This document shows positions 29,804-34,033 of a DNA stretch of 39,102 bases, one piece after another. Under the pieces are notes generated by a model. The model had not been told where the DNA came from. It did not search any database and saw only the letters and a list, made by a program, of their open reading frames with translations. The DNA is from an uncultured Sphingomonadales bacterium (GTDB taxonomy: Bacteria > Pseudomonadota > Alphaproteobacteria > Sphingomonadales > Sphingomonadaceae). Positions within the stretch are counted from its first letter, which is position 1. Every line of letters begins with the position of its first letter. The DNA is taken from the NCBI GenBank assembly GCA_903868245.1, contig CAIPUN010000092.1:1-39102 (forward strand). Direction: 5' to 3'. Position numbers and translations under genes: made by a program.

Positions 29804-31108
29804 ATGAAGAAGGTCGTTTTTGTCTCTTTAGGCGCAGCCTTACTAGCGAGTACTTCTGTGGCCGCGCAACCTGCTGACGTGGTTACCGTGATCCATGCCG
29901 GCAATTTATTGGACAAGCCAGGAAGCTCACCGCGCGGCCCATCTACCGTCATTATTCGCAATGGCAAAATCGTTGAACTTTTGTCTGGACATCAGCAGGG
30001 ACCAGCAGGTGCGACACTGATCGATCTGAAAGACAAATTTGTCCTCCCAGGGTTAATCGACAGCCATGTGCATTTGGATAGTGACGCAGGCGGTAATGCA
30101 GCGTTGATCGAGGCCGTTACCGACAGTCCGGCGCGCGCCGCCTATCGCGCTGCGGGTAATGCGAAGAAAACATTGATGGCTGGCTTCACTACAGTCCGCA
30201 ATATGGGCGACGGCACAGGCGCAACTCTTGCTTTGCGCGATGCGGTCGCTGCGGGCGAACTCCCCGGACCCCGGATTATTGACGCTGGCCGTTCGATCTC
30301 AACGACCAGCGGGCATATGGATGCAACGCTCTCAGTCTCCGAAGACCTACATGCCAGTATCGGTCAGGAAAATCTGTGTGATGGCGTTGAAAGCTGCCGT
30401 CAGGCGATACGCAAACAGGTCCGGCGCGGTGTGGACGTGATCAAGATTGCAACGACAGGCGGCGTGAATAGCCGCATTGGGGCTGGTCTTGGGCGGCAAT
30501 TGTTTGATGACGAGGTGAAGGCATTAGTTGATACTGCGCATCTTTACGGCAAGAAAGTTGCCGTCCACGCCCATGGCGACGACGGCGTCAACATCGCCTT
30601 GGCTGCTGGAGCCGACTCGATTGAGCACGGCACCATGATTACCGACGAGAGCATCAAATTGTTCAAATCTTCAGGCGCATATTATGTGCCGACGCTGTCT
30701 ACGGTGAATGGCTATCTTGAGCGGCTCGCTGCAAACCCCAATGCCTACCCGCCTGACGTGCTGGCGAAAGTGCAATGGCGCATTGGTGTGACTGGTAAGA
30801 GCCTTGCCAAGGCCTATCCTGCAGGCGTTAAAATCGCATTTGGTACAGATGCCGGTGTTTCCAAGCATGGCCGGAACGCAGACGAGTTTGAATTGATGGT
30901 GAAGCATGGCATGCCCGCCAGTGCCGCTATTCAGGCCGCTACAATGAATGCCGCGACCTTATTGGGCGTTGAAAAAGAGGTGGGATCGCTCGAACCAGGC
31001 AAAGCAGCAGATTTGATTGCCGTGGCAGGAGACCCCATAGCCGACATCACTACATTGAAATCGGTACGTTTCGTGATGAAGAATGGGCGGGTTTTTAAGG
31101 CTGAATGA
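29804..31108 (+). CDS. Secreted metal-dependent amidohydrolase
   Basis: A 434-residue amidohydrolase (imidazolonepropionase/prolidase-like). Residues 1-21 form a signal peptide, MKKVVFVSLGAALLAS then a likely cleavage after SVAA, so the enzyme is periplasmic. Metal ligands are His88 and His90 (SHVHLD), Lys214 (VIKIATTGG, carbamylated in the family), His255/His257 (HAHGD), His275 (EHGT) and Asp349 (GTDAG). ATG 29804 is set by GGGGAG about 10 bases upstream and the signal peptide; the frame is open to 29771. Its 3' end overlaps the convergent DUF2855 gene by 14 bases. Confidence 0.9.
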   Translation: MKKVVFVSLGAALLASTSVAAQPADVVTVIHAGNLLDKPGSSPRGPSTVIIRNGKIVELLSGHQQGPAGATLIDLKDKFVLPGLIDSHVHLDSDAGGNAALIEAVTDSPARAAYRAAGNAKKTLMAGFTTVRNMGDGTGATLALRDAVAAGELPGPRIIDAGRSISTTSGHMDATLSVSEDLHASIGQENLCDGVESCRQAIRKQVRRGVDVIKIATTGGVNSRIGAGLGRQLFDDEVKALVDTAHLYGKKVAVHAHGDDGVNIALAAGADSIEHGTMITDESIKLFKSSGAYYVPTLSTVNGYLERLAANPNAYPPDVLAKVQWRIGVTGKSLAKAYPAGVKIAFGTDAGVSKHGRNADEFELMVKHGMPASAAIQAATMNAATLLGVEKEVGSLEPGKAADLIAVAGDPIADITTLKSVRFVMKNGRVFKAE

Positions 31109-32183
31109 TGATACCCTTTTGTGGGTCTGTTCGGCCTTGAAGGGTCTCTACAAAGACGGTTTCGGCAGCATTGAGTCCGGCGCGTATTTCGATTTCCACC
31201 ACGCCATCGGCCGCAGTTAGGAAGCTTTTCCAACTGCGGCTTACGGCTTCGCCAAAACCTTTTGGTCCTAGTTCCTGAATAGTTGCGACCGCGTGATCGG
31301 GGGCGAAAAACAGGATGGGCTTCGGTCCCGGCATTTCGCCGCCACTTGCGCCAGCGCTGTTTGGCCCTCGTGCGTCAACATGGGTGGCTCCGACCAAACA
31401 GCTATAATTTAAATGGCTGGCCAGCCTTTCGTGGATCGCCCGGAGCAGTTGCGAATTGCCGGCAAAATCGACGCAGACCGAAGCAGTCTTGGGCAGGGCG
31501 TCAACGTTATCATAGGACATGACTTCGTCGTACAGGCCAGTTCCCATGACAAATTCCACATTGCCTTTCGAGGTCAGACCTATGCGCTTTATGCTGGACG
31601 ATAAATCCTTTGCGACGCTCGCAAGACCCATCGCCGTTTTGGATGAAGCGCTAGTGATGATAAGGTTTTCTCCGCCAAACCAGCCTTCGCGGCGGAGCAT
31701 GGCTTCAATAAGGAAGCCAGTTTTGAACAAAGGTCCGAATAACATACGCTCCGCCTCTTTGGCGGGGTCATGTTCCAGGTCAGCGGCAAGACGGCTATAC
31801 TGGTTATAGATTGGGCTCATGGGCTGCCGGTGTGCCGCCATATCGGTGAAACCGCCGATACTCACTTTGCCAGGCAGAACATCGAGATGCGTCCCCATCG
31901 GTAAATAGCCATAGACGCGCTCGCCAACCGCAATATCGGGGCAATGCGATTCTTCGACCATTGCATGGCCCCACATTGGCACGACGCCGAAATCCCCATC
32001 CGCTGGAAAGAAGTTCCAATAGCCGAACTGGTCCCCGATGACCGCGTAAGTGATGTTATTGGCGGTGACGGAGAAGCTTTCGATACGCAAACGAACTGCA
32101 CCTTCGCTAAGCGGCGGCAATGCCGCGTCATGCACCTGCGTTTGTGTCAGTGCCTGTTTGTTTACCCAGATTGTCGATGCCAT
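31095..32183 (-). CDS. DUF2855 family protein (MDR-related)
   Basis: A 362-residue protein of the DUF2855 family, distantly related to medium-chain dehydrogenases, with FSVTANNITYAVIGDQFGYW near the N-terminus and a cofactor-like region around IITSASSKTAMGLA. Function is unknown. ATG 32183 is supported by GGAG 9 bases upstream; the frame is open to 32207. It overlaps the amidohydrolase 3' end by 14 bases. It is divergent from ribB across a region with two palindromes. Confidence 0.82.
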   Translation of the reverse strand: MASTIWVNKQALTQTQVHDAALPPLSEGAVRLRIESFSVTANNITYAVIGDQFGYWNFFPADGDFGVVPMWGHAMVEESHCPDIAVGERVYGYLPMGTHLDVLPGKVSIGGFTDMAAHRQPMSPIYNQYSRLAADLEHDPAKEAERMLFGPLFKTGFLIEAMLRREGWFGGENLIITSASSKTAMGLASVAKDLSSSIKRIGLTSKGNVEFVMGTGLYDEVMSYDNVDALPKTASVCVDFAGNSQLLRAIHERLASHLNYSCLVGATHVDARGPNSAGASGGEMPGPKPILFFAPDHAVATIQELGPKGFGEAVSRSWKSFLTAADGVVEIEIRAGLNAAETVFVETLQGRTDPQKGIIIQP

Positions 32184-32253
32184 AATTGCTTCTCCTTGCG
32201 ACGGCATAACCGCCTGAACTTATCCATTCAACGAAAGACTATAGCTTCAATTG

Positions 32254-32269
32254 TTCACATTGATGTGAA
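32254..32269. promoter_or_regulatory. Palindrome 1 in the DUF2855/ribB divergent region
   Basis: TTCACAT-TG-ATGTGAA is a perfect 16-base palindrome. Its half-site TCACAT/ATGTGA is shared with the palindrome at 32285-32300. It is about 70 bases upstream of the DUF2855 start and 44 bases upstream of ribB. It could be a second operator of the same regulator or serve the DUF2855 side, where TATAGT (complement of 32238-32243) is a weak -10 candidate. Confidence 0.6.
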
Positions 32270-32277
32270 TATGCACT

Positions 32278-32306
32278 TTGACAATCACATCGCGATGTGA
32301 AAATAG
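32278..32306 (+). promoter_or_regulatory. ribB promoter with operator palindrome in the spacer
   Basis: A perfect -35 TTGACA (32278-32283) is followed by a 17-base spacer and a weak -10 AAATAG (32301-32306). The perfect palindrome TCACATCG-CGATGTGA (32285-32300) fills the spacer almost exactly. The transcription start would fall near 32313, which is the A of the ribB ATG. No ribosome binding site is visible, so the mRNA may be leaderless. No FMN riboswitch is present in the 129-base gap. Confidence 0.55.
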
Positions 32307-32312
32307 CGAATC

Positions 32313-33614
32313 ATGAGCACACAATTGATCAATAAACTTCGTAGCCTCGTCAACGACGGCGGCTTGTCACGGTCCGGCTTGGCGCGCGCTGCTGGCCTTC
32401 ATGCCAACACTTTGCGCGACTTGGATGAGCCGGGCTGGAATCCCACCGCGGAGACACTGCGTAAGTTGGAAAGCTATTTGTTTTCGAATGATGACACGCC
32501 TGCGCTCGTGCCGATTGAGGAAATCATTGAAGAGGCGCGGAACGGCCGGATGTATATTCTCGTCGATGACGAGGACCGGGAAAATGAAGGTGACCTGATA
32601 ATTCCGGCGCAAATGGCGACGCCAGACGCGATCAATTTCATGGCAACGCATGGCCGTGGCCTTATCTGCCTTTCGATGACCAAAATGCGTTGCGAGCAGC
32701 TTGGCCTGACGCCGATGGCGCGTGAGAACCGTGAAAGCATGCAAACTGCCTTCACGGTGTCCATAGAAGCCCGTGACGGTGTTACGACGGGTATCAGCGC
32801 AGCAGATAGGGCGCGCACGATTTCAGTTGCTGTAGACGCTTCCATGGGGCCTGATGATATCGTTTCGCCCGGCCATGTCTTTCCGCTTACGGCACGCGAT
32901 GGCGGCGTGCTGGTGCGCGCAGGGCATACAGAAGCGGCTGTCGACATTAGCCGGCTTGCCGGTCTCAACCCGTCGGGCGTGATTTGTGAAATCATGAAAG
33001 ACGATGGCACAATGGCAAGGATGGACGACCTAGTCGCTTTCGCCCGTATGCATAATTTGAAAATGGGGACGATCCGCGATTTGATCGCCTATCGCCGCAA
33101 GCACGATCATTTGGTCGAAAAGCGCGCGGAGATGAAGTTCAACAGCCGTTGGGGCGGTGACTGGTCCGCCATGACCTTTTACAACAAGGCGACGGGCGAT
33201 GAGACCATTGCTTTGATAAAGGGCCGCATTGACCCTGAAAAACCGACATTGGTTCGTATGCACACAATGTCGATGTTCGTTGACGTGTTTGGCGAAGAAA
33301 ATGAGCGTTCAGGCCTTTTGTCACGTTCGATGGAGGCCATCGCTGCTGAAGGCGCTGGTGTGATCGTGGTCATAAACAAGCCCATGAAGGGCATTGTGTC
33401 CCGTTTCATGCAGCTGCGCGCAGAGGGCAAGCAAGCTGGTGCGCCTGAGATTGAAGAACTGCGGGATTATGGCGGCGGCGCACAAATCCTGACCGAGCTT
33501 GGCGTGCAGGACATGATATTGCTCACCAACACCCACCACACGTTGGTTGGCCTTGAAGGCTATGGCCTTTCCATTGTAGGCGAACGGCCAATTCCCGGAA
33601 CCGGAGGCGAGTGA
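32313..33614 (+). CDS. ribB: 3,4-dihydroxy-2-butanone-4-phosphate synthase with N-terminal HTH and degenerate GTP cyclohydrolase II domain (RibBX type)
   Basis: Makes 3,4-dihydroxy-2-butanone 4-phosphate for riboflavin. Residues 1-58 resemble a helix-turn-helix domain ([20 protein letters not shown] then [13 protein letters not shown]). Residues about 65-265 are the RibB domain with [13 protein letters not shown] (82-94) and [10 protein letters not shown] (202-211). Residues about 285-425 resemble GTP cyclohydrolase II, but the zinc region reads [20 protein letters not shown] with no Cys at all after residue 225, so this part should be inactive. This is the RibBX arrangement known in Proteobacteria. 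The HTH and the palindromes upstream suggest self-regulation. It overlaps ribH by one base. Confidence 0.88.
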
Positions 33615-34033
33615 TGGCAAAGTTTTTGATAGTTGAAGCGCGGTTTTATGACCATTTGAACGACATGCTCGTCGCAGGTGCGACGGCAGCGTTGAAGGCC
33701 AAGGGGCATGAGGTTGAGGTCATTACCGTGCCCGGCGCGCTCGAAATTCCCGGTACCATAGCGATGGCCGCAGAAGCGCAGATATATGACGGTTTTGTAG
33801 CCATTGGCGTTGTCATTCGCGGCGAAACGTATCATTTTGAGATTGTCGCTGGCGAGAGCGCGCGCGGTATCATGGCGTTGACGATGGACGGAATCGCAAT
33901 CGGCAACGGCATATTGACCGTTGAAAACGAAGCGCAAGCTATCGTGCGCGCCGATCCCAAGCAGAAGGACAAGGGCGGAGAAGCCGCTATTGCGGCGATG
34001 GCCTTGCTAAATCTGCAAAATCGTTTCAACTGA
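33614..34033 (+). CDS. ribH: 6,7-dimethyl-8-ribityllumazine synthase
   Basis: Condenses the RibB product with 5-amino-6-ribitylamino-uracil to lumazine, the last-but-one step of riboflavin synthesis. The 139-residue protein has VPGALEIPG (39-47) and the catalytic His in [12 protein letters not shown] (His74). ATG 33614 shares a base with the ribB stop (TGATG), and GGAGG lies 6 bases upstream in the ribB 3' end. Only 4 bases separate it from the carboxylase gene. ribD and ribE are not in the window. Confidence 0.95.

Follow-up and report, generated by a model that had tools for sequence, protein, structure and literature searches.

A helix-turn-helix domain on RibB and a palindrome in the ribB promoter: a probable enzyme-autorepressor in the Sphingomonadaceae

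Introduction

How do sphingomonads control riboflavin synthesis? The question is raised by a stretch of 39,102 nucleotides (nt) from an uncultured Sphingomonadales bacterium (contig CAIPUN010000092.1; hereafter the window). Its ribB gene, an open reading frame at 32313-33614 on the plus strand, encodes a protein of 433 residues with a putative helix-turn-helix (HTH) domain in front of the catalytic domain, and a palindrome lies just upstream of the start codon. Riboflavin regulation in sphingomonads is undescribed in the searchable open-licence literature: neither an HTH-bearing RibB nor sphingomonad ribB control is mentioned in the accessible text of that literature, including three riboflavin reviews (PMC12542839, PMC7693651, PMC13028884) and a riboswitch survey (PMC3766115). 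The family is also nearly devoid of flavin mononucleotide (FMN) riboswitches. The locus offers a directly testable answer. Judged from sequence comparison, RibB very probably acts on the ribB(-ribH) promoter as a dedicated autorepressor, both here and in most of the Sphingomonadaceae sampled.

The HTH domain and the palindrome occur together

The primary putative operator, TCACATCGCGATGTGA (TCACAT-N4-ATGTGA; 32285..32300), is an exact palindrome, separated from the ATG by 12 bases. Further upstream lies a second site, TTCACATTGATGTGAA (32254..32269); the ATGTGA in it begins 22 nt ahead of the primary site, at a distance of about three helical turns. The preliminary description of this DNA had named two palindromes here. 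The first is indeed of the standard N4 form, whereas the second is an N2 variant of which mainly the right half, ATGTGA, is conserved in relatives. The exact N4 palindrome has a single copy in the window and a single copy in the organism's own 1.97-Mb genome.

The palindrome was scored across relatives as mismatches over its 12 positions, and each locus was represented by its best site in the 220 nt ahead of ribB. Among 183 loci with an HTH-bearing RibB, the best site had no mismatch in 100, one in 65, two in 17 and three in 1, and hence at most three in all 183. These loci comprise 103 genome loci (52, 36, 14 and 1 with zero to three mismatches) and 80 named loci (48, 29 and 3 with zero to two), seven of the latter sharing an identical upstream stretch with one of the 103. 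At 34 loci with an HTH-less RibB, the best site had four mismatches in 4, five in 20 and six in 10, and three or fewer in none. In coding windows taken from the 80 named loci as a control, the best site had four to six mismatches in every case (80/80). Furthermore, a motif-free count of 7-mers in the 103 HTH promoters of the genome set placed ATGTGAT (71) and TCACATT (69) on top, and each occurred at 0 of the 34 HTH-less loci. On the coding controls, the HTH-less loci and the 7-mer count, a chance palindrome was rejected. It had been proposed beforehand that HTH-bearing relatives without the palindrome would speak against self-regulation; the opposite was found, as the palindrome was present at 183 of 183 loci.

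The N-terminal domain of RibB was detected in 161 of 199 family genomes (E <= 1e-3), representing 76 of 96 genera. Two of these genomes (G010 and G027) gave weak matches (E ~5e-4), neither of which proved to be an HTH-RibB, which leaves 159 carriers at most. The exact palindrome was found in 85 of the 161 genomes and in none of the 38 others (Fisher 3e-11). It was present as one copy in 81 genomes and as two copies in 4, and a reversed-pattern control gave 0 among the rows listed. The 75 exact sites listed come from 72 genomes; in 69 cases the HTH match follows within 150 nt, five sites lie elsewhere and one could not be placed.

Named carriers of HTH-RibB include Sphingorhabdus wooponensis, Sphingorhabdus profundilacus, Chakrabartia godavariana, Sphingobium boeckii, Sphingosinicella soli and several Novosphingobium. 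The window is close to Sphingorhabdus, with 100% identity to S. wooponensis over the first 68 residues of RibB. In a class-wide survey of 385 genomes (five of them in the family; up to 15 candidates scored per genome), strong N-terminal matches (E < 1e-30) were found in only four, all family members. Eight genomes of other families gave weak matches (E 1e-10 to 7e-4), which we read as generic HTHs, and an origin of the domain outside the family was rejected on these grounds.

A Cro/C1-type domain in front of an intact RibB domain

The putative Cro/C1-type HTH domain spans RibB residues 1-58 (32313..32486, plus strand). Among 27 aligned copies of the domain, including that of the window, 20 matched Pfam HTH_3 (best E 4.5e-7) and 21 matched HTH_26 (E <= 1). 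An AlphaFold2 model of residues 1-68, built on 57 aligned sequences, reached a mean predicted local distance difference test (pLDDT) score of 79, with helices at 2-15, 20-27 and 46-60 and a short helical turn at 34-36. In a Foldseek search with this model, HipB, CapH, SinR, DdrO and restriction-control proteins ranked high. The top 50 matches (probability 0.89-1.0; template-modelling score to the query mostly 0.5-0.64) were nearly all of the XRE type, and non-XRE proteins were also present, for example the MuB N-domain at rank 7. The sequence matches and the predicted fold of the lambda-repressor type both place the domain among the Cro/C1 HTHs, and we take it to be a true HTH. Eleven residues (G28, L29, H30, N32, L34, R35, W42, N43, P44, T48 and K51) are invariant at 183 of 183 loci, where many other positions vary; the probable recognition helix corresponds to about residues 30-37 (HANTLRDL).

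The HTH is followed by a 3,4-dihydroxy-2-butanone-4-phosphate (DHBP) synthase domain, RibB proper, at residues 69-260 (32517..33092, plus strand; PF00926, E 3e-85). Its catalytic motifs, HTE among them, are intact in the window and invariant across the 57 aligned sequences. Next comes a degenerate GTP cyclohydrolase II (GCHII)-like domain, the X domain, at residues 271-425 (33123..33587, plus strand; PF00925, E 2e-34), which is present in all 57 sequences. The cysteines of the window protein are at 119, 127 and 225; residues 271-425 contain none, and hence the X domain has no cysteine zinc site. A GCHII-like domain that lacks zinc cysteines behind an intact RibB domain is the layout of the RibBX proteins described in other proteobacteria (PMC10012899). 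With DNA-binding and catalytic domains on one polypeptide, both conserved, the protein has the composition of a bifunctional enzyme-repressor of the BirA or RbkR kind. A full-length AlphaFold2 model (pLDDT 63) was set aside. The domain order read from the bare sequence in the preliminary description, with an HTH in the first 58 residues and a zinc-less cyclohydrolase-like domain behind RibB, is borne out, and the comparison with HTH folds that it had suggested leads mostly to XRE-type proteins.

Promoter architecture and proposed mechanism

In the window, a TTGACA -35 element (32278..32283, plus strand) stands one base before the primary palindrome, which fills the spacer behind it. A weak putative -10 element, AAATAG (32301..32306, plus strand), is placed by its position at a 17-nt spacer and ends 7 nt before the ATG. 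A similar arrangement emerges from 146 dereplicated promoters; these were chosen for two or fewer mismatches, and conservation inside the palindrome is partly due to that selection. Outside it, counted from the first base of the palindrome, positions -7 to -5 favour TTG and positions +16/+17 favour TA, which fits a -35/-10 pair with a 17-nt spacer holding the palindrome. In 76 of the 146 promoters an exact ATGTGA is present at -23 to -20, whereas the rest of the 60 nt has six occurrences. The distance from this upstream half-site to the half-site of the palindrome is about 30-33 bp, or three helical turns, which puts both on the same face of the DNA.

Of 158 loci whose start is clear, 116 have the ATG 28-30 nt from the palindrome start, and a Shine-Dalgarno-like motif occurs within the last 16 nt at only 9 of 125 loci with a distance of 26-31. 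Because the ATG sits where transcription should start and the Shine-Dalgarno-like motif is rare, the pattern suggests a leaderless ribB mRNA. Five Sphingorhabdus-like loci (L087, L088, L090, L092, L093) have the operator 61 nt from the aligned start, GGAGG before that start and a further in-frame ATG 33 nt upstream; their translation start is ambiguous. The palindrome precedes the predicted transcription start, which makes a role as an RNA hairpin unlikely. The start of ribH, encoding lumazine synthase (33614..34033, plus strand; PF00885, E 1e-41), overlaps the ribB stop, and ribH is probably part of the same transcript.

DHBP synthases are dimers. A RibB dimer would set its two HTHs on the palindrome, and a second dimer would bind the upstream site cooperatively. 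When plentiful, RibB would block RNA polymerase, so that ribB and the overlapping ribH would be under negative autoregulation and the RibB level held at a set point. Self-regulation of ribB through its HTH, as first proposed from the window alone, is strongly supported by the comparative data, which bring out the HTH-RibBX fusion, a promoter palindrome that is usually the only exact copy in its genome, the phased upstream half-site and the joint presence or absence of domain and site across the 183 HTH and 34 HTH-less loci. Alternatively, RibB might bind as an activator, for instance from the upstream site. That site does lie upstream of the -35 element, where activation by proteins of the Cro/C1 kind is possible, lambda CI being one example. 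Yet the stronger, fully palindromic site is the one between -35 and -10, a blocking position, which makes activation very unlikely.

Evolution of the fusion and points against autorepression

A tree of the RibB body (89 HTH and 33 HTH-less rows, quick method) implies 10 changes of HTH state, at least 4 of them forced by supported branches. The site label is identical to the HTH state in every row of the tree and likewise changes 10 times. According to a motif test, 17 of the 34 HTH-less ribB genes closely follow ribE, and ribE is the upstream neighbour at 42 of the 183 HTH loci.

Several observations weigh against autorepression. The HTH and the promoter are adjacent, and one deletion moving ribB into a ribE operon would remove both; their co-loss alone is therefore no proof of contact. 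Independent pairs on supported branches agree in 4 of 4 cases, which is too few for significance (p 0.125). With 350 nt searched at 30 HTH-less loci, a three-mismatch site was found at 2, so such a site can arise by chance. A two-mismatch scan of the organism's own genome gave 32 places, compared to 7 for a reversed control, so that weaker targets may exist elsewhere in this genome. A mechanical sigma-70 scan of the window called no promoter, and its -10 element is poor. The HTH of the window also falls below the Pfam cut-off: residues 1-68 alone match HTH_3 with 17.9 bits (E 0.003) against a curated cut-off of 23, and HTH_3 was not listed in a Pfam scan of the full-length protein. The best Foldseek E-value was 0.048, weak for so short a model. 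A profile search of the PDB put T4 lysozyme first (E 0.056), with DdrO at E 0.22 and no clear HTH match, and a single-sequence search put DdrO first at E 0.01 only. Finally, DNA binding and repression by RibB are themselves predictions drawn from sequence.

Some of these points could favour a separate, unlinked transcription factor as the owner of the operator, with the HTH-shaped part of RibB an add-on for oligomerisation or stability. The domain and the promoter could be lost in one deletion, the contact between RibB and the site is a prediction, and two family genomes that were checked contain stand-alone relatives of the HTH that carry WNPT (loci L253 and L254). However, a single exact site in 81 of 85 genomes would be odd for an independent regulator, and 69 of the 75 exact sites listed are just upstream of an HTH-ribB. 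Moreover, the exposed HTH residues H30, N32 and R35 are invariant, and the palindrome does not occur with fewer than three mismatches in the stretches surrounding L253 and L254. We therefore regard a separate factor as unlikely, and autorepression by RibB as the preferred reading.

The gene upstream of ribB in the window, a divergent DUF2855 gene (31095-32207), could in principle share the palindrome as its operator. We reject this as its main function: at loci with another gene upstream, for instance the 42 with ribE, the site is still found at ribB. With regard to the history of the domain, small frames of 67-110 codons related to the RibB HTH occur at four loci (L253, L254, L066, L067), at least three of which (L253, L254, L067) carry WNPT; such frames are a possible source of the RibB domain.

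Exact sites away from ribB

A wider regulon was checked at five listed exact sites that do not lie at the start of an HTH-ribB (in genomes G101, G103, G104, G152 and G165; a second site in G197 falls outside this set). Those of G104 and G152 are inside coding frames, that of G152 within ribB itself. The site of G103 lies ~1.5 kb past the ribB end, and that of G165 ~50 nt before an unidentified gene. None of the five adjoins another recognised rib gene, and we treat them as chance or unexplained rather than as a wider regulon. In G101, an exact copy identical to that genome's ribB site lies shortly before a phage terminase large-subunit gene (locus L245, G101:C21, ~1186-1316), with two overlapping one-mismatch copies ~110 nt further on. 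Could a prophage be using or titrating the RibB operator?

FMN riboswitch, X domain and metabolite sensing

An FMN riboswitch (RF00050) was found neither in the window, which had no Rfam family at all, nor in the organism's own genome, in agreement with the preliminary description. Riboswitches were detected in 69 of 385 alphaproteobacterial genomes, compared to 1 of 199 family genomes; both surveys used stricter filters, with up to 15 or 8 candidates scored per genome, and a few may be missed. The sole family genome with a riboswitch (G164; locus L227, G164:C1:1157800-1161300, genus g9) lacks HTH-RibB. About 1.7 kb downstream of its riboswitch lies instead the gene for a RibB that is 46% identical and has a strong GCHII domain; enzyme and control system appear to have been exchanged together. 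The suggestion that the HTH replaces the riboswitch is only partly sustained. The remaining 37 of the 38 HTH-less family genomes had no riboswitch found either, which counts against it; its absence is family-wide, and the HTH alone does not explain it.

A refinement of autorepression, whose confidence overlaps with it and which is the view of the preliminary description, is that RibB acts as a metabolite-gated trigger enzyme, in which ribulose-5-phosphate, DHBP or a flavin would switch DNA binding and functionally replace the riboswitch. Possibly, substrate, product or flavin on the catalytic or X domain tunes the affinity for DNA. Across the Sphingomonadaceae, flavin or substrate occupancy of RibBX might then be read directly at one dedicated promoter with two phased sites, a leaderless message and a regulon of about one site. 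The X domain, although without zinc cysteines in the window, is kept in all 57 aligned sequences, and the only riboswitch in the family is in a genome without HTH-RibB. For Shewanella, a regulatory effect of the RibBX X domain on RibB activity is described, its mechanism being given as unknown (PMC10012899). A role in gating would give this puzzling domain a possible function. On the other hand, the HTH-less RibBs of the family also match the query to its end, which indicates that the X domain is not specific to HTH regulation, and 37 of 38 HTH-less members do without a riboswitch as well. We consider metabolite gating conceivable but tentative, both as a self-repressor that reads occupancy and as a substitute for the riboswitch.

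A true RibA (GTP cyclohydrolase II) is also present in 6 of 6 HTH-RibB relatives tested, and 3 of 3 congeners tested have one. In the organism's own assembly (G000), only the degenerate X domain and no true RibA was found, which is probably an assembly gap (95% complete). Genome G127 has two more GCHII-like domains (G127:C1:2996446-2996901 and 1200942-1201373) with RibBX-like scores and no HTH match, besides its HTH-RibBX and RibA; these may be RibBX paralogues.

Comparison with known systems

The nearest known kind is the archaeal RbkR, reportedly due to Rodionova et al. (2017); HTH-RibB would be an enzyme acting as its own repressor. In the text available on it, RbkR is an HTH-riboflavin kinase, that is, a riboflavin-pathway enzyme with an N-terminal HTH that is both regulator and enzyme (PMC8305020, PMC7693651). 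It differs, as far as that text goes, in being a riboflavin kinase of Archaea, whereas here the enzyme is RibB, the hosts are bacteria and there is apparently one target promoter.

BirA, NadR and PutA are bifunctional enzyme-repressors that repress pathway genes through their own DNA-binding domain. Their folds, ligands and regulons are different, and the regulon here is apparently the enzyme's own promoter.

The RibBX proteins of Shewanella, Aeromonas and Bradyrhizobium also combine an active RibB domain with a following GCHII-like domain that lacks GCHII activity, according to the part of the article covered (PMC10012899). The term helix-turn-helix has 0 occurrences in the text searched (PMC10012899), whereas in the sphingomonad protein a DNA-binding domain is added. 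BzdR likewise carries an XRE-type HTH on an enzyme-derived domain; its synthetic chimera with shikimate kinase comes close to HTH-RibB as a functional model, from what the accessible text describes (PMC3602430). In that text, BzdR has no kinase activity and acts on a catabolic promoter (PMC3602430), in contrast to HTH-RibB, which keeps its catalytic motifs beside its own operator. HTH-RibB would be a natural case of an enzyme having recruited a DNA-binding domain together with an operator. Like the FMN riboswitch (RF00050), an RNA switch that serves many other bacteria, it would control ribB at its own 5' region, through a protein-DNA operator rather than an RNA sensor, and may offer a compact control part of one protein and one promoter.
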